This document shows positions 1,964-33,122 of a DNA stretch of 33,529 bases, piece by piece (positions within the stretch are counted from its first letter, which is position 1; each line of letters opens with the position of its first letter). The position numbers were made by a program, and so were the translations under genes. The notes below the pieces were generated by a model. The model did not search any database and had not been told where the DNA came from. It worked only from the letters and a program-made list of their open reading frames with translations. Source of the DNA: a virus; the IMG/VR virus record IMGVR_UViG_3300032285_003600, positions 1 through 33,529 of that record; one strand, 5' to 3'.

Positions 1964-2051
1964 TACACCAGGTGGGAATTGAACCCACACCTAGGAGTTA
2001 TCAACTCGAAACGCTTATAAGGCGCCTTGCTCTACCGTGAGCTACTGGTGC
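1964..2051 (-). tRNA. Unusual 88-nt tRNA-like gene with two anticodon-type arms (Ile GAU or UAU)
   Basis: Acceptor strands GCACCAG and CTGGTGT, D arm GCTC/GAGC, and T arm GTGGG-TTCAATT-CCCAC are all standard; the discriminator is A and the next bases are CCG, not CCA. The middle can fold in two ways. (A) A class II-like fold: stem GGCGC/GCGTT with loop CTTATAA (anticodon UAU, 2017-2019), then an extra arm GAGTT/AACTC. (B) Removing 18 bases (2007-2024) gives a perfect stem AGGAG/CTCCT with loop TTGATAA (anticodon GAU, 2000-2002) and a normal 4-base variable loop. Both would be isoleucine tRNAs. It may be interrupted, hybrid or non-functional. Confidence 0.7.
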
Positions 2052-2057
2052 ATAAAA

Positions 2058-2145
2058 TGGTCGCCTAGGCCGGACTTGAACCGGCACAGGGGATGCCCCC
2101 CGACAGATTTTAAATCTGTTGTGTCTGCCATTTCACCACTAGGCG
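2058..2145 (-). tRNA. tRNA-Leu (anticodon UAA)
   Basis: Acceptor CGCCTAG pairs with CTAGGCG. The anticodon stem-loop is ACAGA-TTTAAAA-TCTGT, with the anticodon at 2110-2112. A long variable arm (GGGG-GCAT-CCCC) and T arm GCCGG-TTCAAGT-CCGGC follow. The 3' ACCA is encoded. It starts with C1-G72 rather than the usual G1. It reads UUA, a common codon in this AT-rich DNA. Confidence 0.95.
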
Positions 2146-2167: not shown

Positions 2168-2243
2168 TGGTGGGCCCGGAGGGATTTGAACCCCCAACCA
2201 AGCGATTATGAGTCGCCTGCTCTGACCATTGAGCTACAAGCCC
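2168..2243 (-). tRNA. tRNA-Ile2 (anticodon CAU, lysidine type)
   Basis: This is a 76-nt tRNA with encoded CCA, acceptor GGGCTTG/CGGGCCC and anticodon arm GGCGA-CTCATAA-TCGCT (anticodon at 2208-2210). The anticodon arm and the following TTGG match the bacterial minor tRNA-Ile2 that TilS modifies to read AUA. Initiator and elongator Met tRNAs have a different arm. AUA codons are frequent in the window, so it likely compensates for codon bias. Confidence 0.9.
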
Positions 2244-3074: not shown

Positions 3075-3695
3075 TTAGGCATGATGCAAGTTGTTAATTC
3101 CTTTGGTTTCCATAATATCTTCAATTTCTTTGATATGTAAAGGTTTTCTATGAAGATCCCATCCACAATCTAAAATCTTATAGGTCTTATCTTCTGGTCT
3201 AGAAACTTCTAAAGTACCGTGACTATGACCACAAAGATGCATAGCACCGTGACCCATATTATCCCAGACCCGCATAGGAAAATGAAAACAAACAAAAGTC
3301 TTTCTCCCTTTACGAAAAGTAAAATAATGTTCTAGATATTTAATAAAGGTTCCTTTAATACAAGCTGCTACCTGTATACGAGTTCCACCATAAGATTTTT
3401 GAATAGGATTATTATGATTACCCCAGAGCATCCAGACCTCTTTAACTCGAAGCTTGCTCATAATATCTTCATACTTTTCTCGGGAGGTATTCAAACAAAA
3501 ATCTCCGAGATGCAATAAAATACCGTCTTCTCCTACTGTCTCGTTGATAATACGAATCATGTCTTCCGTCATTTCTGTGGCATTATTATAACCACGCGTG
3601 CCATAAACAAAATCTCTATCATGATTAAAGTGTGTGTCTGAAGTAACAAACAGCTTATCATAATCTTCCTCTGAGAATTTGTACATAACTTCCAT
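3075..3695 (-). CDS. Calcineurin-like metallophosphoesterase
   Basis: With the start at 3695 the product has 206 residues and every metal-binding motif of the family in order: DTHFNH (20-25), GDF (64-66), GNHN (92-95), His in CFHFP (138) and GHSHG (156-160). These coordinate two metal ions for phosphodiester or phosphomonoester hydrolysis. It resembles short phage phosphoesterases whose substrates are unknown. Longer in-frame starts (3713) overlap the opposite gene. The element TATAATAG lies 5 bases before the chosen ATG. It sits close to an Rnl1-type RNA ligase, so RNA 2',3'-cyclic phosphate or 3'-phosphate removal is a reasonable but unproven role. Confidence 0.85.
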   Translation of the reverse strand: MEVMYKFSEEDYDKLFVTSDTHFNHDRDFVYGTRGYNNATEMTEDMIRIINETVGEDGILLHLGDFCLNTSREKYEDIMSKLRVKEVWMLWGNHNNPIQKSYGGTRIQVAACIKGTFIKYLEHYFTFRKGRKTFVCFHFPMRVWDNMGHGAMHLCGHSHGTLEVSRPEDKTYKILDCGWDLHRKPLHIKEIEDIMETKGINNLHHA

Positions 3696-3700
3696 AAATA
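3693..3700 (+). promoter_or_regulatory. Promoter element CATAAATA, overlapping a divergent start codon
   Basis: CATAAATA ends 7 bases before the ATG at 3708 and overlaps the start codon of the divergent phosphoesterase gene (3693-3695). The opposite strand carries TATAATAG at 3701-3708. The two promoters therefore interlock. Confidence 0.5.
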
Positions 3701-3707
3701 CTATTAT

Positions 3708-3977
3708 ATGCAATTCGATGCTTTGGTCAACACATTATTAGAAAAACATAATTCACCTTGCACCAAGGTGACCGGACAACAACCTTCTACTCGTAAAGAT
3801 AAAAAATATATGAGATGTGCCAGAGTGGGCGGCAAACTCAAAAGAGTTCATTACGGGGATCCTAATATGAGAATCAAGAAGTCTAACCCCAAGCGTCGTA
3901 AGAGCTATAGGGCTAGACATCATTGTAGTTCTGCTAAACCAGGAACCGCAGAATATTTCAGCTGCAAGAATTGGTGA
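3708..3977 (+). CDS. Basic conserved phage protein with SYRARHHC motif
   Basis: The 89-residue product is strongly basic. The core reads KKYMRCARVGGKLKRVHYGD, then PNMRIKKSNPKRRKSYRARH, and it ends in a C-x-W type tail (SCKNW). This arrangement (K-RV-x-YGDPxMxIKKxxPxRRKSxRARHxC) is one I recognise from small phage proteins and from the C-terminal ends of some phage structural or protease proteins. Its biochemical role is unknown; the His/Cys pattern could bind metal. Its last 20 bases overlap the convergent RNA ligase gene. Confidence 0.7.
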   Translation: MQFDALVNTLLEKHNSPCTKVTGQQPSTRKDKKYMRCARVGGKLKRVHYGDPNMRIKKSNPKRRKSYRARHHCSSAKPGTAEYFSCKNW

Positions 3978-5061
3978 AGGTCTTCCACAACTTGTGAGGG
4001 TCCAACTCCTTTCCGTCTAGTAACGAAAAGCCAATCCAAGCATATTCAGGAAACAATTCTAGAATCTTCTGAGCCTTGCCTTTACGATCCAATTCTACAA
4101 AATCTGGATTTTGCAAATACATGATCACCCAGAATACTTTTTTTGCTATAATCAAAGTCTTTTCATAGAGCTCATCTAATAGAGGTTTTAAAGTAGTTAC
4201 TAACTCCCAATCAAAATTAGTAGCTAACTGCTTTTCAAACTCTTCTCTAGGAGGTTGATTATATTCCACAAATATATCGAACAAATGATCTACAGTCTTA
4301 ACTCCTGTAAACACTCGATGTAATTCTAGATAACGAAGGGTCTTGATCTTCTTTAAAATTTGATTGGTATCAAGTTTATCTGTTTCATCATAGATGACCA
4401 CTCCTTCAATGTCTTTAAGAGGTTCTATGCTCTTTTTGAAGTCTTCTACATTATCACTCAAACGAATTCCAAAAGATTTAGGTCTTTCGACTTCCATCTC
4501 TTTGGCATACACATTCAAATTGTGTTGAGATGCATAAGAATAATCTGAATGTCTAACCATTCCAATCAACCACAAAGTGGGTTCTGCAGTTTCATTTAAT
4601 ACAATACGATTAGTGGGAGTAGTCCATTCAAAAAGAAGGGTAAACAAACCACAATCTAACCATTCATTGTCAAATGCTTTTGGATACTTCTTCTTGAGTA
4701 GTTCTATTTCAAATCCATTATCTAGCTGTGTTGCGTCTATTGTGCCTCTAGTGCGAACAATAAGTTCATCCTTATAATTGCTAACAATTAAACAAGAACC
4801 ATCAATTTTTTGAACGGCACGAAAGGTTAATTTTTCTGGCAAAGATTCAAAATTGGGCTTTTCACCGTAGTTCATAAACTTACGGAAACCCAGAGATACT
4901 GGATGCATGTCGGACTTGCGCCAGATAGAAGAACGAAAGTACTTGTTATCTTCATTCCAATTTACACTCATGTCTTTAGGAGTAACCAGAACACAGTCTT
5001 CACCTGCTATGACACAGTCTTTGATAAAGAATTCTTCTAACGAAGGAAGGGTAAATCTCAT
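3958..5061 (-). CDS. rnlA: T4 Rnl1-type RNA ligase
   Basis: The 367-residue length matches T4 RNA ligase 1 (374). The nucleotidyl-transferase motifs are in order: motif I KIDGS with the AMP-accepting Lys at 85, motif IIIa LLFEW (142-146) followed by TPTNRIVL as in Rnl1, motif IV EGVVIY (219-224) and motif V KIK (238-240). A helical C-terminal domain (about 245-367) completes it. In T4 this enzyme reseals tRNA cut by host anticodon nuclease after end healing by a kinase/phosphatase. It uses ATP and acts in the cytoplasm. Here a phosphoesterase gene lies 260 bases downstream and a P-loop kinase at 8165. The start follows the upstream gene's stop by 17 bases. Confidence 0.88.
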   Translation of the reverse strand: MRFTLPSLEEFFIKDCVIAGEDCVLVTPKDMSVNWNEDNKYFRSSIWRKSDMHPVSLGFRKFMNYGEKPNFESLPEKLTFRAVQKIDGSCLIVSNYKDELIVRTRGTIDATQLDNGFEIELLKKKYPKAFDNEWLDCGLFTLLFEWTTPTNRIVLNETAEPTLWLIGMVRHSDYSYASQHNLNVYAKEMEVERPKSFGIRLSDNVEDFKKSIEPLKDIEGVVIYDETDKLDTNQILKKIKTLRYLELHRVFTGVKTVDHLFDIFVEYNQPPREEFEKQLATNFDWELVTTLKPLLDELYEKTLIIAKKVFWVIMYLQNPDFVELDRKGKAQKILELFPEYAWIGFSLLDGKELDPHKLWKTFTNSCS

Positions 5062-5768: not shown

Positions 5769-5776
5769 TATTTATC
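5769..5776 (-). promoter_or_regulatory. Promoter element GATAAATA
   Basis: The element overlaps the stop codon of the protease gene (5772-5774) and ends 5 bases before the ATG at 5763. The holin-like pair could thus be transcribed separately from the protease. Confidence 0.6.
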
Positions 5777-6731
5777 GAAGAAAAACAAATAACAGAGAAA
5801 TGATAGCAGATGCAATTAATATATAAGTGCCTGGTTTTTTCCATATACTCACCGGAGAAGGAAAAGGAGGGACTATGGGTTCTGGAGAGGGTTGAGGAGG
5901 AACCGGTATTGGTTCCGGTTTTGGTGGTTCTGGAAAAGGATCTGGATCTTCTGGAGTTTTTTCTTCAGATCTTATAGTCCAAAAATCCATACTTAACGCT
6001 GGATTTAAAAGATACTCTATTGGAAAATTATGATAACCGTTTAAACCGACATAATTACCCCAAGAATTTCTTACCATTATTTGTATAGACGTATCTGATG
6101 CACTTAAATAACCAACTGCTAGCATACAATGTCCGCCTAATAATTTTTCATTAGTGGTATCTGGTATAGGTACTACATTATTAATAATAAAACCACATTG
6201 GGTCTTTGTAAAGGATTCATACAATCTAGCTCCGAAAGTAAATGGATAGCCTTCTGCTAAACAAGAAAGTATATCATTTTTAGTCTGTGGTACACTGTAA
6301 TAGGTCAATGCTTGGTGTAATTGGCCTTCATTCCAAACAGAAAGTGGAGGGTTTTCTGTAAATTTTTCTACAATATAAGGCCAAGTTGTTTCTTTGACTA
6401 CTCCGTCTTTAACTGTAGATTTAAGAGCATCTCTAACTGATGCTCCAGAATCTGTAGATATTGTATTTTCTATTTTACGGGTTGAATAATAAGTGAAAAG
6501 AGGTGAAGCATCCCATTTTAAGAATCCTTGTTTATTTCTAACATATTCTACCATAGCAGTAGTAGCAAAAGCTGTACAAGCTCCTAGATCTCCTTGATTC
6601 TTAATAGGCTGTAATCCGTCTCTTAAATCTATTCTAGGCGGTAAATTTTCTATTACAGACGCTTTAAAAACAAAATCTCTAGAATCCGGAAAATCTGGAA
6701 CATGGCCGAAAAAAAATACATTAGTAAGCAT
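5772..6731 (-). CDS. Papain-like cysteine peptidase (C1A) with Pro-rich stalk and membrane anchor
   Basis: The 319-residue protein has the C1A catalytic set: oxyanion Gln46 in IKNQGDLGAC, nucleophile Cys52, His201 in GGHCMLAVGY and Asn222 in RNSWG. No long inhibitory prodomain is seen; the mature-like domain begins by residue ~12 (PDFPDSRDF). A proline-rich linker (about 260-294, repeats of P-E-P and P-x-P) leads to one C-terminal membrane helix (302-318). There is no obvious N-terminal signal. I chose the ATG at 6731 because TATAAGTA lies 5 bases upstream. Two holin-like genes follow. Possible roles are envelope-protein cleavage during lysis, virion-protein processing or attack on host surface proteins. 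Confidence 0.85.
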   Translation of the reverse strand: MLTNVFFFGHVPDFPDSRDFVFKASVIENLPPRIDLRDGLQPIKNQGDLGACTAFATTAMVEYVRNKQGFLKWDASPLFTYYSTRKIENTISTDSGASVRDALKSTVKDGVVKETTWPYIVEKFTENPPLSVWNEGQLHQALTYYSVPQTKNDILSCLAEGYPFTFGARLYESFTKTQCGFIINNVVPIPDTTNEKLLGGHCMLAVGYLSASDTSIQIMVRNSWGNYVGLNGYHNFPIEYLLNPALSMDFWTIRSEEKTPEDPDPFPEPPKPEPIPVPPQPSPEPIVPPFPSPVSIWKKPGTYILIASAIISLLFVFLR

Positions 6732-6736
6732 GTATA

Positions 6737-6744
6737 TACTTATA
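6737..6744 (-). promoter_or_regulatory. Promoter element TATAAGTA
   Basis: The element ends 5 bases before the protease ATG at 6731 and overlaps the last codons of the upstream gene (stop at 6740). Confidence 0.6.
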
Positions 6745-7453
6745 AAAAAGTACAATGGCCTAATAAATTTTGAACAAAATCTAAAAGTAAATTATGTTGC
6801 AAAGGATTTTTCCATCCTTCGTGTATTTGAGTCTGTGAGTAAAACCACCAACGCATAGCTTCTGGATGAGGTCCTATTACTCCAATAGTTCCTTGCCATA
6901 AATGCTGAATCAGGGCTGCGGGGTCACCATTTTCATAAAAAGCTTGTATAGTAGCATAACATGCATCCCCTCTTCCTTCTGTTACAACAAAAGAAGCACC
7001 GTCATGAAAGTAAGCTAAATGTGGACCAGTGTTTCTCCATTTTAAAGGTACAATAGCCGGACCAGATCTACGAGTAGAAGCACCTGGTCTTTTAATATGT
7101 TGTACCGCTTCTATATCACCTAATAAATCAAAGTAATGTTTACTAGCAAAATAAGCTCCTTGACAAATACCGAGATACTTGCCTCCAGAAGATACATAAT
7201 CATAAACCATTTGTTTGTGATTTATGAGATTTTCATCAAATTGATCTGCATCACCTAAACCACCCGGAAAGACCAAACAGGTAGCTTTAAAAACATTTTC
7301 TGCATTAAATTCTAGATAGGGATACGAACTGGGTCCTATCATTCTAACATCATATAGCCCAGATTGATTTAATACTTCACAAGTAGCATCTGCACAGTCT
7401 ATACTGCACATTGGATGATCTGTGTAGACCAAAAATAAGGGCTTAGGTTTCAT
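6740..7453 (-). CDS. Class I glutamine-amidotransferase-like protein (BPL_N type)
   Basis: The 237-residue protein has an FPGGLGDAD loop (62-70) and the nucleophile elbow LGICQGAY with Cys97, the hallmarks of the class I amidotransferase / DJ-1 superfamily. The spacing best fits the biotin-protein-ligase N-terminal-like family (PF09825). A partner synthetase domain is absent, so it may be a hydrolase rather than an amide donor. His164-like HLAYFHDGASF and a final HPEAMRWWF match the C-terminal part of the fold, where a catalytic His normally sits (GPHPEA). The start overlaps the upstream stop as ATGA (7450-7453), so translation is likely coupled. Confidence 0.75.
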   Translation of the reverse strand: MKPKPLFLVYTDHPMCSIDCADATCEVLNQSGLYDVRMIGPSSYPYLEFNAENVFKATCLVFPGGLGDADQFDENLINHKQMVYDYVSSGGKYLGICQGAYFASKHYFDLLGDIEAVQHIKRPGASTRRSGPAIVPLKWRNTGPHLAYFHDGASFVVTEGRGDACYATIQAFYENGDPAALIQHLWQGTIGVIGPHPEAMRWWFYSQTQIHEGWKNPLQHNLLLDFVQNLLGHCTFL

Positions 7454-8164: not shown

Positions 8165-8590
8165 TTAAATAATATCTACTGGAGGAATTTGAATACAGTT
8201 TGAATATTCTTGCCATCTAGCTTTCATTTTTTTAAGAGTTTCTTCCGGTACATTATGAATATTATCAAAAGAATTATTCATCTGATATACCTTAAACTCT
8301 GCATTATATTTCTTTGCTATCAATTCATAGGGTTTAATTTCCTTAACTGTGGTAAAAGTATTAGACACCACTACATTAAAACCTCTGTTCAAATAATCTT
8401 CGGTCTTTGCTTGACACCATTCATGGGCCTTACCTAGTTTAGATGCATCGAAAATATATTCTTCTCCTAAGATAAAATACATATCAGCTTCTAGATGTCG
8501 TGTAAAACCAGAAGTTCTTGCTTGAATTTCTTTGGCTTTGGTAGATTTTCCAGAACCTGGAAGACCGCGAATAAGAGTAAGATTGGCCAT
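8165..8590 (-). CDS. P-loop kinase, polynucleotide-kinase-like (AAA_33 type)
   Basis: The 141-residue protein opens with a Walker A motif GLPGSGKST (9-17). It continues with EADMYF in the position of the substrate/lid Asp, a CQAKTEDYLNRGFNVVVSNTF segment typical of AAA_33 / N4BP2-like kinases, and an NVPEETLKKMKARWQEY tail. Members include 5'-OH polynucleotide kinases and sugar or nucleotide kinases. With two RNA ligases in the window, a 5'-kinase role in RNA end repair is attractive but not proven. T4 Pnkp is about twice as long because it has a phosphatase domain, absent here. The start at 8590 is the first ATG of the conserved N-terminal strand. Confidence 0.78.
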   Translation of the reverse strand: MANLTLIRGLPGSGKSTKAKEIQARTSGFTRHLEADMYFILGEEYIFDASKLGKAHEWCQAKTEDYLNRGFNVVVSNTFTTVKEIKPYELIAKKYNAEFKVYQMNNSFDNIHNVPEETLKKMKARWQEYSNCIQIPPVDII

Positions 8591-9866: not shown

Positions 9867-12830
9867 TTAATTTACATAAGCTGCTTCGTTGGAAAATATT
9901 AAAGCTTGTATTAAGGTTTCCCACGGAGAAAATGCTACACGTTCTACCAATTCTCCTTGATTAACAATAGCTCTTTTTGGATCTTTATTATTTTGTAATT
10001 GTTTAAATTTAGCTTCTGCTAATTTTTTAGCTTGAGCTGTGATTGTTTCTGCTCCAGTTTTAACATTGGCCTGTTCTTTATTTTCTTTAACTAAAAAATC
10101 TAAAGCCATTTTTCTTTCCTTAGCTGTTGGGTAACGTTGCAATACAATTTTAAATACAGCTGTAATCCCTTTATCTGTATTCTTTTCTTTTGCCACAGCC
10201 TCTACTAATTCCGCTCGTTGAGATATCTTTTGCACCACTTCTGCTACTAACGGACTATTCATAAGGAATAAAGCTTGTTGAGGAACAACTGTTGAAGCTC
10301 TCCTTGTATTTGGTTGATCTGGATTAGACATATCAAATTGCATTAGTACGTCCGGCATATCAGATCTGTCAATATAAGCATAAGCTGTTCTTCTGAAAAT
10401 AATAGGTTCTTCTGAAACATTGAATGAAGGTCCGCCATATGGTTCTCTTTGTAAAACTCTACCCATACTCAACAATGAATCTCTGTATGCTTCAAAATCT
10501 AATCTTCTAACATTAGCTCTCCACAACAAATTATTACCAGGATCAATTTTACTGTATTCTTTTAATGTCTCTACACTAAAGGTGTTGCTAGATTGTTGAT
10601 ATACTTTAGAAAGCATAATTGCTTTGTGCAGAGCCTTAACACTCCAAGCTGGCTTTTGAGGACCATAATCCGCCATGAACCAAGTAGCCAAGAAATCTAA
10701 CAACTCTGGATGGGTTGGAGTACCGGCAGAATTGCCGAGATCATCCGGAGTCTTAACCAAACCTTCGCCAAAATGATACATCCAAACTCTATTGACTAAA
10801 ACTCGAGCTGTTAAAGGATTGTCTTTGGTTGCAATGGCTTCTGCTAATTCTAAACGACCACTTTCTTTATCACTAAAAGGAGTCTTTTCTGGATTTAATA
10901 TTTCCAAAAATCTTCTCTGAACAATTGTAGCTTGACCAGCAGCCGGTGGATTACCTCTCGGAAATAGTGGAGAATTTGTAGGCTTAACGGCGTCTTCTAC
11001 TGCCATTGCTCTAACAAGACCGTTGGTTGCTGTAAGCTTAAATTCATTGATCTGTTGTATGGTATTAGACGCTCTCAACTTATCTTGCATTTCTATAGAC
11101 CATTTTTTAGCTTCTACCCTCATGGTCTCAAAGTTCATATTTTTAGCTAAATTTAAAGCAGAAGGAAATACTGATATATTGTAGGCGTCTTTATCATCTG
11201 GATCAAAACTAGCATTTGTTATTTGAGCAAATAAATTAGCCCTTTGAGGTTCTACTTCTGCAAACAATTTACCCACTAATTCTGCTACTGTGTGAATATC
11301 ATCTGTCAAAGGTTGTGGTTGTTGTTTGAGAAAATTTAATACAATAGGAGAATATGTTTTTGTATCTTGTAACATTTTAGATAAAACATCGTCTCTATTT
11401 TCTTTAACATGAACCAATTTAAAGAAGGGTCCTAAAATTTTGTCATTAGGATTGAAATGACGCCCTACAGCACTTTCAATATGTCTAGCTATTCTCGCAT
11501 CCCATTTGTGTTTTGTTTGAATTTCTCCTGCCAGTTTTTTACGATCGGCATTTGTGTCTTTACCCATTAGAATAATATATTCTGTAATAGGAGAAGCATT
11601 TTTACCAAAGAAGTCTGCTTCTTCTCTTTGAATTTTGTAATAGGCATCAATAGATTTTTGTTCTAGTTCATTTAGTTTGGCTTGAAATTCTTGAAAGCCT
11701 TCTTTCTTATTAATCACTGGACCTTCTGTCGGTTCTGTACAGCTAAGAAACACTCCTTTCAATGCGTAATAATCTGCTATAGTCAAAGGATCAAATTTAT
11801 GATCATGGCAACGAATACATGCCAAAGTCAAACCTAGCATGCCTCTTCCCACTACATCAATACGATCATTAATAGTGTCATTGGCATTGTTAAATCTTTG
11901 ACCCACTGTTAGGAATCCCAAAGCCGCTAAGTTAGAAACATTGTTATCAGGAATTCTATCTGCCGCCAATTGATTTTTTAAAAACATATCATAAGGCATG
12001 TCAGCATTAATTGCATCAAAGACCCAATTTCTGTAAGTCCATGCATATGGTAGACGATAATCATCTAACCTTTGAAAAGTAGTAATACCTGTAGTGTCAG
12101 AATATCTTGCAGTATCTAACCAATGTCTTCCCCATCTTTCTCCGTAACCCTTATCCGCCAAAAGTCTATCAATTACTTTTTCATAAGCCTTTGGCGATTC
12201 GTCTTGAATGAATTGTTCAATTTCTTTAGGAGTTGGGGGTAAGCCGATGAGATCAAAATATGCTCTACGAAGTAGTGTTTCTTTACTAGCAAGAGGAGCT
12301 GGAATAATTTCTTTTTCTTCTAGTTTAGAAAGAATAAAATAATCAATTTTATTAAAACACCAAGATTCATTTTTAACTGTCGGTACTTTAGGAACTTGAG
12401 GTAATTTAAATGCCCAGTGATCTCTCTTGTCTTTAAGTTCACCAGAAGCCCTGGTGTCAAAAGCGCCTTGTTCAATCCATTTAGTCAGTAATGCTATTTG
12501 CTGATCAGAAAGCTTTTTCTTCTCTGGCATTCGAAGATCTCCATCCCAGTTAATAGCTTTTATGAAAGTGCTTTCTTTAACATTATGAAAGTCTATTACC
12601 TTACCGTTCTCTCCTCCTTTAAGAAGGCTTTCGTGAGAATCTAAACTAAGACCTCCTTTGGTTTTGCCTTTAGCTACAGAATGACAATCCATACATTGCT
12701 CTGTAAGCAATGGTAATATCTCTTTGTCAAAAGTTTGTTGTTGCTCTGGAGTAGGATCTACTTTACCAAAAGAACTTACGATGAGCAGTGAGCTCATCAC
12801 CACACATAACCCAGCGTATAGTTTTTTCAT
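9867..12830 (-). CDS. PSCyt1-DUF1549-DUF1553 secreted cytochrome-like protein
   Basis: The 987-residue protein has a signal peptide (MKKLYAGLCVVMSSLLIVSS). A PSCyt1 domain follows, with heme-binding CMDCH (46-50) and DLRMPEKKKLS near 100. DUF1549 contains ERWGRHWLDTARYSD (~230) and a second CIRCHDHKFDP (~337). DUF1553 has NRVWMYHFGEGLVKTPDDLG (~680) and continues to the C-terminus. Domain order and length match intact proteins abundant in Planctomycetes and Verrucomicrobia, where they are paired with DUF1501 proteins; their biochemical function is unknown. It starts one base after the DUF1501 stop (TAA-T-ATG), so the two are co-transcribed. There is no internal stop or truncation. Finding it among phage genes is unusual. 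Confidence 0.93.
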   Translation of the reverse strand: MKKLYAGLCVVMSSLLIVSSFGKVDPTPEQQQTFDKEILPLLTEQCMDCHSVAKGKTKGGLSLDSHESLLKGGENGKVIDFHNVKESTFIKAINWDGDLRMPEKKKLSDQQIALLTKWIEQGAFDTRASGELKDKRDHWAFKLPQVPKVPTVKNESWCFNKIDYFILSKLEEKEIIPAPLASKETLLRRAYFDLIGLPPTPKEIEQFIQDESPKAYEKVIDRLLADKGYGERWGRHWLDTARYSDTTGITTFQRLDDYRLPYAWTYRNWVFDAINADMPYDMFLKNQLAADRIPDNNVSNLAALGFLTVGQRFNNANDTINDRIDVVGRGMLGLTLACIRCHDHKFDPLTIADYYALKGVFLSCTEPTEGPVINKKEGFQEFQAKLNELEQKSIDAYYKIQREEADFFGKNASPITEYIILMGKDTNADRKKLAGEIQTKHKWDARIARHIESAVGRHFNPNDKILGPFFKLVHVKENRDDVLSKMLQDTKTYSPIVLNFLKQQPQPLTDDIHTVAELVGKLFAEVEPQRANLFAQITNASFDPDDKDAYNISVFPSALNLAKNMNFETMRVEAKKWSIEMQDKLRASNTIQQINEFKLTATNGLVRAMAVEDAVKPTNSPLFPRGNPPAAGQATIVQRRFLEILNPEKTPFSDKESGRLELAEAIATKDNPLTARVLVNRVWMYHFGEGLVKTPDDLGNSAGTPTHPELLDFLATWFMADYGPQKPAWSVKALHKAIMLSKVYQQSSNTFSVETLKEYSKIDPGNNLLWRANVRRLDFEAYRDSLLSMGRVLQREPYGGPSFNVSEEPIIFRRTAYAYIDRSDMPDVLMQFDMSNPDQPNTRRASTVVPQQALFLMNSPLVAEVVQKISQRAELVEAVAKEKNTDKGITAVFKIVLQRYPTAKERKMALDFLVKENKEQANVKTGAETITAQAKKLAEAKFKQLQNNKDPKRAIVNQGELVERVAFSPWETLIQALIFSNEAAYVN

Positions 12831-12831
12831 A

Positions 12832-14199
12832 TTAAGCTATAATATCTTTAATTACCTCACCAAAATTATCTGTCAATCTAAAATTACGACCGTTATAATT
12901 GTAAGTTAATTTTTTATGATCAAAGCCCATCAAGTGCATGATGGTTGCGTGTAGATCATGAATAGTAACGATGTCTTCAACAGCTTTGGCACCTGTTTCA
13001 TCTGTCTTACCATATCTCATTCCGCCTTTAACATTTCCACCGGCCATCCAGATAGAAAAGGCTTTGCCATTATGATCTCTACCAGGAGTTCCAGCTCCTC
13101 CACCAGCTGTTGCTGTACGACCAAATTCTCCACCCCAAATTACTAGAGTAGAATCAAGTAAACCTCTTTGTTTTAGATCTGTTAATAAACCGGAAATTGC
13201 TGTATCATACTTTGCAGCTGTGTTTGTCATGTTCAACTTGATATTTTCATGATGATCAAATCCTCCAACATTTACTTGAACAAAACGCACTCCTCTTTCC
13301 ACTAAACGACGAGCCACCATCAGCTTAGCACCGTCTTCTGTGCGACCGTATAAATCTTTAATATTTTCTGGTTCTTTGGTTACATCAAAAGCATCTGTAG
13401 CTTCTGTTTGCATTTTGAAAGCAGTTTCAAATGCTTCAATGCGAGATTCTAATTGAATATCTCTTTGAAGTTTTTCCATATGCATGAAATTCATGTTACG
13501 AGAAAATTCAATCTGTCTGCGTTGTCTTTCTAATGTAGAGAATTGACTCGTAAGGTTTGCTAAAATTTCATCAGAACGCATTCCTTGACGATATTGAACA
13601 TTACAACCTTGGAACATTCCTGGTAAGAAAGCACACTGTCTCCAATTTGGATTACCATTCAATGAAATAAATCCTGGCATGTTTTGATTAGCGGTACCGA
13701 GTCCGTATACCATCCAACTACCAACACTGGGTTTGGGCAATTGTGAATCTCCTGTATTCATCATCTTAGCAGCTAGATCATGATCTGGAATGGGTGTTTG
13801 CATAGAGTTAATAATAGCCAACTCATCTGCATGAGATCCTACCTTACTCCATACTTCTGAAATGTTTAACCCAGATTTACCAAATTGCGGAAATTCAAAA
13901 GGCGAAGCAAATAACAGCCCACCATTCTCAGCTTTCATTCCGTCTTTAGATTTTAGTTCTGGCTTATAATCAAAAGTATCAATATGAGAAGGAGCTCCGC
14001 TAGCAAACAGCTGAATAATTGCTTTGGCTTTCACAGGAAAGTGAGGATTTCTAGCAGCCAAAGGAGAAGCAGCTTCTGCTGTATTTGCGTTAATACCATA
14101 TAGAGCAGCTAGTGATAGACCACCCAGACCTGCTCCAAAGTCTGTGAGGAATTCTCTGCGTGTGAGAGGGGAATTTGGATGATTGCCGCAGTCGCTCAT
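12832..14199 (-). CDS. DUF1501 protein with Tat signal
   Basis: The 455-residue protein begins with a twin-arginine signal (TRREFLTDFGAGLGG, RR at 14-15) and a likely cleavage near TAEA. The body has DUF1501 landmarks: FASGAPSHIDTFDYKP, FVQVNVGGFDHHENI, the GGEFGRT segment followed by GRDHN, and the end motif DLHATIMHLMGFDHKKL with NGRNFRLTD. The family belongs to the alkaline phosphatase/sulfatase-like superfamily and is exported folded. It is normally encoded next to PSCyt1/DUF1553, as here. GATAAATA, the same element that precedes the phage structural genes, lies 6 bases before its ATG. Length and motifs look intact. Confidence 0.93.
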   Translation of the reverse strand: MSDCGNHPNSPLTRREFLTDFGAGLGGLSLAALYGINANTAEAASPLAARNPHFPVKAKAIIQLFASGAPSHIDTFDYKPELKSKDGMKAENGGLLFASPFEFPQFGKSGLNISEVWSKVGSHADELAIINSMQTPIPDHDLAAKMMNTGDSQLPKPSVGSWMVYGLGTANQNMPGFISLNGNPNWRQCAFLPGMFQGCNVQYRQGMRSDEILANLTSQFSTLERQRRQIEFSRNMNFMHMEKLQRDIQLESRIEAFETAFKMQTEATDAFDVTKEPENIKDLYGRTEDGAKLMVARRLVERGVRFVQVNVGGFDHHENIKLNMTNTAAKYDTAISGLLTDLKQRGLLDSTLVIWGGEFGRTATAGGGAGTPGRDHNGKAFSIWMAGGNVKGGMRYGKTDETGAKAVEDIVTIHDLHATIMHLMGFDHKKLTYNYNGRNFRLTDNFGEVIKDIIA

Positions 14200-14888: not shown

Positions 14889-15920
14889 CTAATCTTTAAA
14901 GTTCTGATTGATAATTTTTACACTAAGCATCTTTTGTAGTTTTTGACTGTACATTAAACCGTTGTTGGAATTATAACCCCTAAAGACAACTCCTTCTGCA
15001 GGTTTGCCGTTGGCATAATTAATTTGATTGACCCATTTTTGCAAATCATCTATGGTCCAAAGATCAAAATTTTGAAAAACTCTAACAACCGGAACTCCGG
15101 GAATATCTGAAACAACTCCGAGGCCATCTATCCAATTTACCGGAAGAACTGGTTTACGTGAAGGCACTTCAAACATGTTAAACAAATACAACTTAACTTC
15201 CGAGAAACCTGCTGGATTGCTTTGAATTCCGGGACCCGCAATCTCTCCTTGAATACAGTATCCTGGGCGAAGGTGTTCTTGGATATTATATTTGCGAGCC
15301 ATTTGCCAATAAACATTTTCTTCTGTATCTTGTAATTCCATATTCCGAGAACAAACCCGAAAAGTTCCATTCTCTTCTTTGATGTAAGTTGCAGAGGTTC
15401 CGTCTATTTTCAAAGTAGCTTCTACATATTCAGCTTCTGCTAATTCTTCTAAAACTTTGATATTTGATTTAAGATTGTCTTCATCGGTCTTACTAACCAA
15501 ATGAGTAGGAAAATTACCCTTAACCTTACCAGTCAATGATGCTGGCACTGGTTTCTCATATTTGGTGATACCAAGCATTCCAGCAATAGAGACATCCTCC
15601 GAAGGATCCTCCATATGATCCCAGATTTCTTGAGCACTGACCAAAGTCCTCGGAAAGATAAGTCCTTGAGAAATTGTACCACGAAGCTTGACTGTCTTGA
15701 CTCTGATAGGCTTTGTAGGATCTTTCTTGTCCCAAAGAAATTTGTTCCATTCAGCTGGAGGTAACACTGTATCAATGGGAACAAAAATAACGGTGTCGCC
15801 TACTTTATATTCGTCTTTTTTAATAACTGATTGCCATCCCTGAACCCGGGCCAATTCAATTCTATCTGCTCCTTCAATGGGGAGAATTTCAGTGATAACT
15901 TCTAGAGATGCTAATTCCAT
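14889..15920 (-). CDS. RNA ligase of the DRB0094 (Rnl5-like) family
   Basis: With the start at 15920 the product has 343 residues. An N-terminal OB-like domain (ELASLEVITEILPIEGADRI through GDTVIFVP and LRGTISQGLIFP) precedes the ligase core. The core has motif I TLKIDGTS (AMP-accepting Lys near 183), GEIAGPG, motif IV AEGVVFR and motif V SVKIIN near the C-terminus. This order matches the Deinococcus DRB0094 family, which seals nicks with a 3'-OH RNA strand. The in-frame start at 15980 would read through a terminator hairpin, so it is rejected. It is the second RNA ligase in the window and is unlike the Rnl1 type at 3958. Confidence 0.88.
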   Translation of the reverse strand: MELASLEVITEILPIEGADRIELARVQGWQSVIKKDEYKVGDTVIFVPIDTVLPPAEWNKFLWDKKDPTKPIRVKTVKLRGTISQGLIFPRTLVSAQEIWDHMEDPSEDVSIAGMLGITKYEKPVPASLTGKVKGNFPTHLVSKTDEDNLKSNIKVLEELAEAEYVEATLKIDGTSATYIKEENGTFRVCSRNMELQDTEENVYWQMARKYNIQEHLRPGYCIQGEIAGPGIQSNPAGFSEVKLYLFNMFEVPSRKPVLPVNWIDGLGVVSDIPGVPVVRVFQNFDLWTIDDLQKWVNQINYANGKPAEGVVFRGYNSNNGLMYSQKLQKMLSVKIINQNFKD

Positions 15921-15958
15921 ATAATTAATATAGAAGCAAGAGACTGGAAGATCAACAA

Positions 15959-15988
15959 AAAACCCCTTGGATTTTGCCAAGGGGTTTT
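15959..15988 (-). terminator. Intrinsic terminator
   Basis: A 12-bp perfect stem (15959-15970 with 15977-15988) has a 6-base loop and is followed on the minus strand by a T-rich tract. It ends the transcript of the gene at 16013-16381 and separates it from the RNA ligase gene. Confidence 0.85.

Positions 15989-30770: not shown

Positions 30771-33122
<2,352 letters not shown>

Follow-up and report, generated by a model that had tools for sequence, protein, structure and literature searches.

Computational analysis of a 33,529-base virus record, hereafter the window, showed that positions 1964 to 2051 hold a real, conserved, and apparently undescribed form of tRNA, in which two 7-nt anticodon-type loops, CUUAUAA and then UUGAUAA, stand in series. 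The two-arm design is no fluke; it recurs in many unrelated phages. On balance, we consider it probable that the gene encodes a functional phage tRNA-Ile that reads AUA codons through the UAU of its first loop and presents its GAU arm to IleRS as an identity element, a proposal on charging, folding, and decoding that we draw from patterns of conservation and pairing. More tentatively, and with somewhat less than an even chance of being right, we propose that the two jobs of an anticodon are split within one bistable tRNA, that positions 27-28 act as its switch, and that phages could thereby read AUA where IleRS rejects U34.

The gene was called as tRNA-Ile(tat) by ARAGORN at 1962-2051 on the minus strand, and the Rfam tRNA model RF00005 matched 1964-2051 on the same strand with 50.5 bits (E 6.7e-9), compared with a curated cutoff of 29 bits, which places the locus among cloverleaf tRNAs. 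Its first half reads GCACCAG UA GCUC ACGGUA GAGC A AG GCGC CUUAUAA GCGU UUC, and its second half reads GAG UUGAUAA CUC CU AGGU GUGGG UUCAAUU CCCAC CUGGUGU A. The discriminator is A73, and CCA is not encoded, CCG coming next. The parts of the gene and its two tRNA neighbors are as follows.

1964-2051, minus strand: tRNA-Ile(UAU) gene with two anticodon-type arms, 88 nt (ARAGORN, Rfam, family alignment)
2045-2051, minus strand: 5' strand of the acceptor stem, GCACCAG, pairing with 1965-1971 (7/7 pairs)
2029-2042, minus strand: D arm GCUC-ACGGUA-GAGC with a short, 6-nt loop (U12-A23 invariant in relatives)
2026-2027, minus strand: positions 27-28 (AG), the shared dinucleotide (complementarity in relatives, covariation of 27:43)
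2011-2025, minus strand: presumed decoding arm, stem GCGC/GCGU, loop CUUAUAA, anticodon UAU at 2017-2019 (UAU in relatives)
2008-2010, minus strand: linker UUC between the arms (2 to 6 nt in window-type relatives)
1995-2007, minus strand: second arm, stem GAG/CUC, loop UUGAUAA, pseudo-anticodon GAU at 2000-2002 (covarying stem, GAU in 52/52)
1993-1994, minus strand: positions 42-43 (CU), Watson-Crick partners of 27-28 (5-bp GAU stem AGGAG/CUCCU)
1989-1992, minus strand: AGGU, like a class I short variable loop, A44 G45 G46 N48 (G45 G46 in 52/52, the GG being fixed by search patterns or parse)
1972-1988, minus strand: T arm GUGGG-UUCAAUU-CCCAC (landmark parse of relatives)
2058-2145, minus strand: ordinary class II tRNA-Leu(UAA) (ARAGORN, Rfam)
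2168-2243, minus strand: tRNA with a CAU anticodon, anticodon arm GGCGA-CUCAUAA-UCGCU (called tRNA-Met(cat) by ARAGORN)

A sequence-only reading of this DNA had already pointed to the two loops, UAU and GAU, and both stand where it placed them. It had also described the acceptor, D, and T arms as normal, which is accurate for the acceptor stem, with its 7/7 pairs, and for the 5-bp T stem; the D arm departs from this description in its unusually short loop of 6 nt. The first arm, given there as a clean 5-bp stem, can be read instead as four pairs (GCGC/GCGU) followed by G28.U and A27-U. The suggestion of a class II-like isoleucine tRNA was borne out by the long hairpin between the anticodon stem and the T stem, by A73, and by U12-A23, and the observation that cutting 18 bases (2007-2024) leaves AGGAG-UUGAUAA-CUCCU turned out to describe a real, covarying property of the whole family. 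A recombination between two tRNA genes, also raised there, may fit the origin of the form; a recent accident does not fit, as many phages share it.

The same reading had proposed aligning related phage tRNAs, and we found that the two-loop design recurs in at least 96 distinct parsed relatives from viral contigs, at least 52 with the architecture of the window and 44 with an ordinary class II layout (the second type). They came from scans of viral contigs that fixed different parts of the molecule. The first was anchored on the CUUAUAA loop, on the T loop, and on the last part of the D arm, with the variable region free, and returned class II-length UAU tRNAs. With the D arm and GAUAA...CYAGG fixed and the first loop free, every tRNA-like match of the second scan had UAU in the first loop; UAU appeared again in the true family matches of a third scan, which left the first loop free and covered the largest clade. 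In a fourth, the second loop and the two following bases were unconstrained. Among the matches listed from the scans that did not demand GAU, no window-type member lacked it, part of the window-type set having come from a scan that demanded GAUAA. A pattern search for versions with longer V arms in a 6-bp register gave only chance matches beyond the sequence from contig L014.

A landmark parse of all scan matches defined the at least 52 distinct tRNAs of the window type. Their second loop has G34, A35, and U36 in 52/52, A37 in 50/52, A38 in 51/52, and always a pyrimidine at position 32; it is thus a copy of an anticodon loop, with GAU followed by A37 A38 on seven nucleotides. Position 33 is A in 49/52 and U in 3/52, the window among the latter, so that the loop keeps G34-A35-U36-A37-A38 and usually drops U33, a base that matters for decoding and not for identity. 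Compensatory changes accompany sequence variation in the stem of the GAU arm and in that of the UAU arm. Across the 52-sequence alignment, 98.9% of cells agreed with pairing in the whole structure (71.9% in shuffles), and the covariation score was 0.688 (0.152 in shuffles); MAFFT misplaces linker gaps in this alignment, and pairs of the UAU arm were counted on the landmark parse as well. The acceptor stem is paired at every level in 52/52, A73 is present in 52/52, and so is U12-A23, the GAGC of the D stem being fixed by the parse; U12-A23 is a pair that we take to be an isoleucine determinant.

Positions 27-28 stand between the two arms. In the window, this AG has two possible partners, the UU that follows the UAU arm and the CU at 1993-1994 that follows the GAU arm. 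In the MAFFT alignment of the 52, the pair 27:43 is G-C in 40, A-U in 8, C-G in 2, and unpaired in 2, and the competing partner of base 27 after the UAU arm, which gives 37 G.U, 6 A-U, 2 G-C, and 7 broken pairs, shows no compensation. A tree built without the 27/43-type columns was poorly resolved and required about five changes of base 27. When both architectures and two hand-read members (L160 and L199) were pooled, 27-28 and 42-43 could form two Watson-Crick pairs in 78/80 sequences (the exceptions being L014 and L137), completing a canonical 5-bp GAU stem. The combinations were GG/CC (40), GC/GC (25), AG/CU (9), CG/CG (2), AC/GU (1), and CU/AG (1). In 10,000 shuffles of the pooled 80, the mean number of complementary sequences was 29.4 and the maximum 43; as the shuffles ignore shared ancestry, 78/80 is not to be read as a probability, and the six combinations are the safer statement. 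Within the second type, 27-28 are complementary to the next two bases in 26/26 parsed tRNAs whose local GAU stem has 3 bp and in 0/18 of those with at least four local pairs. Position 28 is also Watson-Crick paired inside the UAU stem in 26/27 of the second type, so two partners compete for it there.

The anticodon stem of the window type can be read as four pairs plus G28.U and R27-U, and its positions 27-28 covary with the bases that follow the V arm. Nearest-neighbor energies, as used here without coaxial stacking, favored the plain class II fold over the fold with 27-28:42-43 by about 4 kcal/mol in 51/52 sequences, and RNAalifold also chose the class II fold on the 52-sequence alignment. 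Since covariation points one way and the energies and RNAalifold the other, we treat the two pairings as alternatives and not as one proven structure. In a charging form of the window type, 27-28 would pair with 42-43, so that a canonical GAU arm with a 5-bp stem sits on a body resembling class I; in a decoding form, 27-28 would pair with the bases after the UAU arm and lengthen that arm. A kissing interaction between UUAU of the first loop and AUAA of the second was also considered and rejected, as L001 and L014 break it yet keep GAU.

The second architecture came from the last scan of viral contigs, which demanded WGATNA in the variable region and a UAU stem in a 5-bp register. It returned UAU tRNAs whose anticodon stem is ordinary and whose V-arm loop is CAGAUAA, CUGAUAA, CAGAUUA, or similar; because GAU was demanded in that scan, finding it in those contigs says nothing about its conservation. 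GAU was not demanded when these tRNAs were compared by BLAST with cultured phages, and the loop proved to be kept in the Vibrio phages Thalassavirus, henriette 12B8, and V6Aob, in Acinetobacter phage qsb1, Aeromonas phage 1233, Synechococcus phage SynMITS9220M01, Stenotrophomonas phage DLP6, and Lactobacillus phage LpeD. Three Lactobacillus phages have lost the GAU heptaloop, namely Semele (UAGAAAA), 3-521 (GGACA), and ENFP1 (AGAUG), which indicates that the GAU loop is not indispensable everywhere. The UAU tRNAs of these three (L260, L277, and L278, respectively) are still of class II length. Cultured members came up only with second-architecture queries, BLAST of window-type tRNAs against cultured phages having returned nothing useful, and are annotated simply as tRNA-Ile or not at all. 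ARAGORN assigns the gene at 3965-4062 of contig L010 to tRNA-Leu(taa); its sequence better fits a UAU tRNA whose second arm is long and has the loop CAGATTA.

Other tRNAs from the same contigs served as controls. The motif YWGATNA occurs in the variable regions of 0/31 tRNA-Tyr, 2/83 tRNA-Ser, and 0/79 genuine tRNA-Leu genes, a count that leaves out an eightieth "Leu," the miscalled UAU tRNA of L010. Ordinary tRNA-Ile(GAU) genes have the anticodon loops UUGAUAA (29), CUGAUAA (11), CUGAUAC (1), CCGAUAA (4), and CCGAUAC (2), with U33 in 41/47 parsed and A33 in 0/47. The two-arm family hardly occurs in cells: when 84,980 bacterial and archaeal species genomes were scanned, one contig with a member turned up, which is short, metagenome-assembled, and rich in tRNA genes, and when 398 genomes of one bacterial phylum were searched for UAU tRNAs of class II length, there were nine matches, none of them tRNA-like in the matched strings. 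Contigs with two-arm family members also hold unusually long (84 to 86 nt) tRNA-Thr(UGU) and tRNA-Lys(UUU) genes (L013, 1598-1682; L050, 1184-1269; L004, 7744-7827), and ARAGORN found tmRNA genes in viral contigs L003 (2354-2755), L011 (9357-9718), and L013 (65-513 and 7114-7471).

The codon that the first loop would read appears to keep its standard meaning. In alignments of phage proteins that are 35 to 75% identical, AUA codons face I in 46%, V in 21%, and L in 17% of cases, and AUU and AUC face I in 56 to 57%, V in 18 to 19%, and L in 9 to 10%; AUA behaves much like AUU and AUC, so on the whole it stands for isoleucine. In the window, 37% of the isoleucine codons are AUA. By its anticodon arm, which resembles that of E. 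coli ileX, the neighboring CAU tRNA (2168-2243) looks like the AUA-reading tRNA-Ile2, and because of this neighbor, reading of AUA by a UAU tRNA looks redundant in the window.

Bacteria normally read AUA with a CAU tRNA that TilS modifies with lysidine, and acceptance by IleRS needs this modification too (PMC11938285). In Mycoplasma mobile, IleRS mutations were needed to charge a tRNA-Ile with U34 (PMC4014445). Isoleucine identity leans strongly on the discriminator and the anticodon, and its determinants include A73 and a pair printed in that text as U12-G23 (PMC9976931). A synthetic pseudo-anticodon placed in the V arm can recruit an engineered HisRS (PMC7590224). In the reading that we favor, the tRNA would be expressed in a host whose IleRS reads the anticodon loop and tends to refuse unmodified U34. 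The GAU arm, a copy of the anticodon arm of ordinary tRNA-Ile(GAU), would be shown to this enzyme as an identity element, and the UAU loop would read AUA on the ribosome. With UAU for AUA and GAU for the synthetase, the demands of decoding and of charging would both be met, and the phage could read AUA without TilS or an altered IleRS.

Other genes of the window give some indication of the virus and its host. Tail-fiber-like proteins, among them a 783-amino-acid protein with collagen repeats (30771-33122, plus strand), and a T4-type RNA ligase fit a tailed phage. A possible RNA-repair set on the minus strand (3075-3713, 3958-5061, 8165-8590, and 14889-15980) comprises a metallophosphoesterase, a T4 Rnl1-like ligase, an AAA_33 P-loop kinase-like protein, and a second RNA ligase (PHA02142 OB-fold). 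Two adjoining planctomycete-type genes (9867-14199, minus strand), PSCyt1-PSCyt2-PSD1 (DUF1549/DUF1553, E 1e-71) and DUF1501 (E 4e-129), either come from a host or hint at one in the Planctomycetes-Verrucomicrobia group. A papain-family cysteine protease domain (PF00112, E 1e-13) lies at 5772-6755 on the minus strand, and weak, subthreshold Rfam matches drew attention to an A/T-rich inverted repeat at 608-663, AAAAAAGACCTAG...CTAGGTCTTTTTT, that resembles an intrinsic terminator.

The GAU hairpin might have nothing to do with charging. It is conceivable, if unlikely, that the molecule is a class II tRNA-Ile(UAU) that IleRS charges through the UAU loop and that the hairpin is a relic or an otherwise conserved structural element, retained, for example, as a stable heptaloop or as a site for a modification enzyme. 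The preference of RNAalifold and of the energy evaluation for a plain class II fold would suit this explanation, as would the Lactobacillus relatives that manage without the GAU loop, and the motif may trace to one ancestor. However, nothing like this conservation is seen in the V-arm loops of the Leu, Ser, and Tyr tRNAs that the same contigs encode, and GAU has been kept across two architectures and many stem sequences while 27:43 and 28:42 covary.

Phage T4 uses tRNAs and ligases against host defenses that cut tRNAs. This precedent and the two RNA ligases, the metallophosphoesterase, and the AAA_33 protein of the window, which would fit an RNA-repair kit, lend some appeal to the improbable idea that the tRNA is built to withstand host anticodon nucleases or to titrate them, with the second loop as a decoy or the odd fold hiding the anticodon. 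A decoy, however, needs neither a covarying 5-bp stem nor isoleucine identity features and would be expected for further isoacceptors beyond Ile(UAU). Moreover, we searched the full records of the Acinetobacter, Synechococcus, Stenotrophomonas, and henriette carriers for both RNA ligase families, and neither is encoded in any of the four.

We regard it as very unlikely that the long variable arm makes the tRNA a substrate of SerRS, LeuRS, or TyrRS, with AUA read as another amino acid in the manner of an allo-tRNA-like recoder. Allo-tRNAs with 8/4 stems often carry UAU (PMC7609411), and A73 would be compatible with Leu or Tyr, but the stems here are 7 plus 5 bp, not 8 plus 4 or 9 plus 3, A73 differs from the G73 listed for E. 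coli tRNA-Ser (PMC9976931), and the residues that AUA faces are near those of AUU and AUC, though Leu is somewhat higher.

Weaker still is the intron raised in the sequence-only reading, by which splicing out the UAU hairpin would give a tRNA-Ile(GAU): removal of the UAU arm and linker leaves a GAU stem of at least 5 bp in all window-type sequences but two, and the window encodes RNA ligases, but the would-be intron is always a perfect UAU arm with U33 and anticodon UAU, even where this was not demanded, the would-be mature loop has A33 in 49/52 (the window itself has U33), against none of the ordinary tRNA-Ile(GAU) loops, the four carriers just named have neither ligase family, and we know of no splicing endonuclease of such a kind in bacteria.

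To our knowledge, every natural tRNA uses a single anticodon loop for the ribosome and also for the synthetase, if the latter reads it. We found no natural pseudo-anticodon tRNA in the open-access PubMed Central literature, and an earlier description elsewhere is possible. Should our preferred reading be correct, separate loops for decoding and for charging would explain how phages bypass the lysidine requirement for AUA, give engineered pseudo-anticodon tRNAs a precedent in nature, and supply genetic-code engineering with a new type of part.

Cellular forms of tRNA-Ile(UAU) are short class I tRNAs. The phage form shares its use of UAU for AUA with tRNA-Ile3 of M. mobile and a few other bacteria, which replaces the lysidine-modified CAU tRNA (PMC8450103 and PMC4014445). 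In those bacteria, IleRS and the ribosome are reported to have adapted, whereas here the tRNA itself bears a second, GAU arm and is found in phages of many hosts. Lysidine-modified tRNA-Ile2(CAU) also reads AUA but depends on TilS and lacks a second anticodon-type arm. Class II tRNAs (Leu, Ser, and bacterial Tyr) likewise have a long hairpin between the anticodon and T arms, but their V loops do not preserve an anticodon-loop sequence; the core of the window type, in contrast, looks like class I, with a 4-bp D stem and AGGN, and its 27-28 can pair with 42-43. Allo-tRNAs (8/4 or 9/3) are also noncanonical, with a long V arm and often UAU, but they have serine identity, and no GAU loop is described for them in the cited text (PMC7609411); the phage tRNA has 7/5 stems. 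The design is also shared with the synthetic pseudo-anticodon tRNAs of Mukai (2020), in which a copy of an anticodon arm in the V arm recruits the anticodon-binding domain of a synthetase (PMC7590224). That system combines an engineered allo-tRNA chassis with HisRS fused to an extra domain, whereas the phage two-arm tRNA is natural, is of the isoleucine type, and would presumably be served by an unmodified host IleRS.
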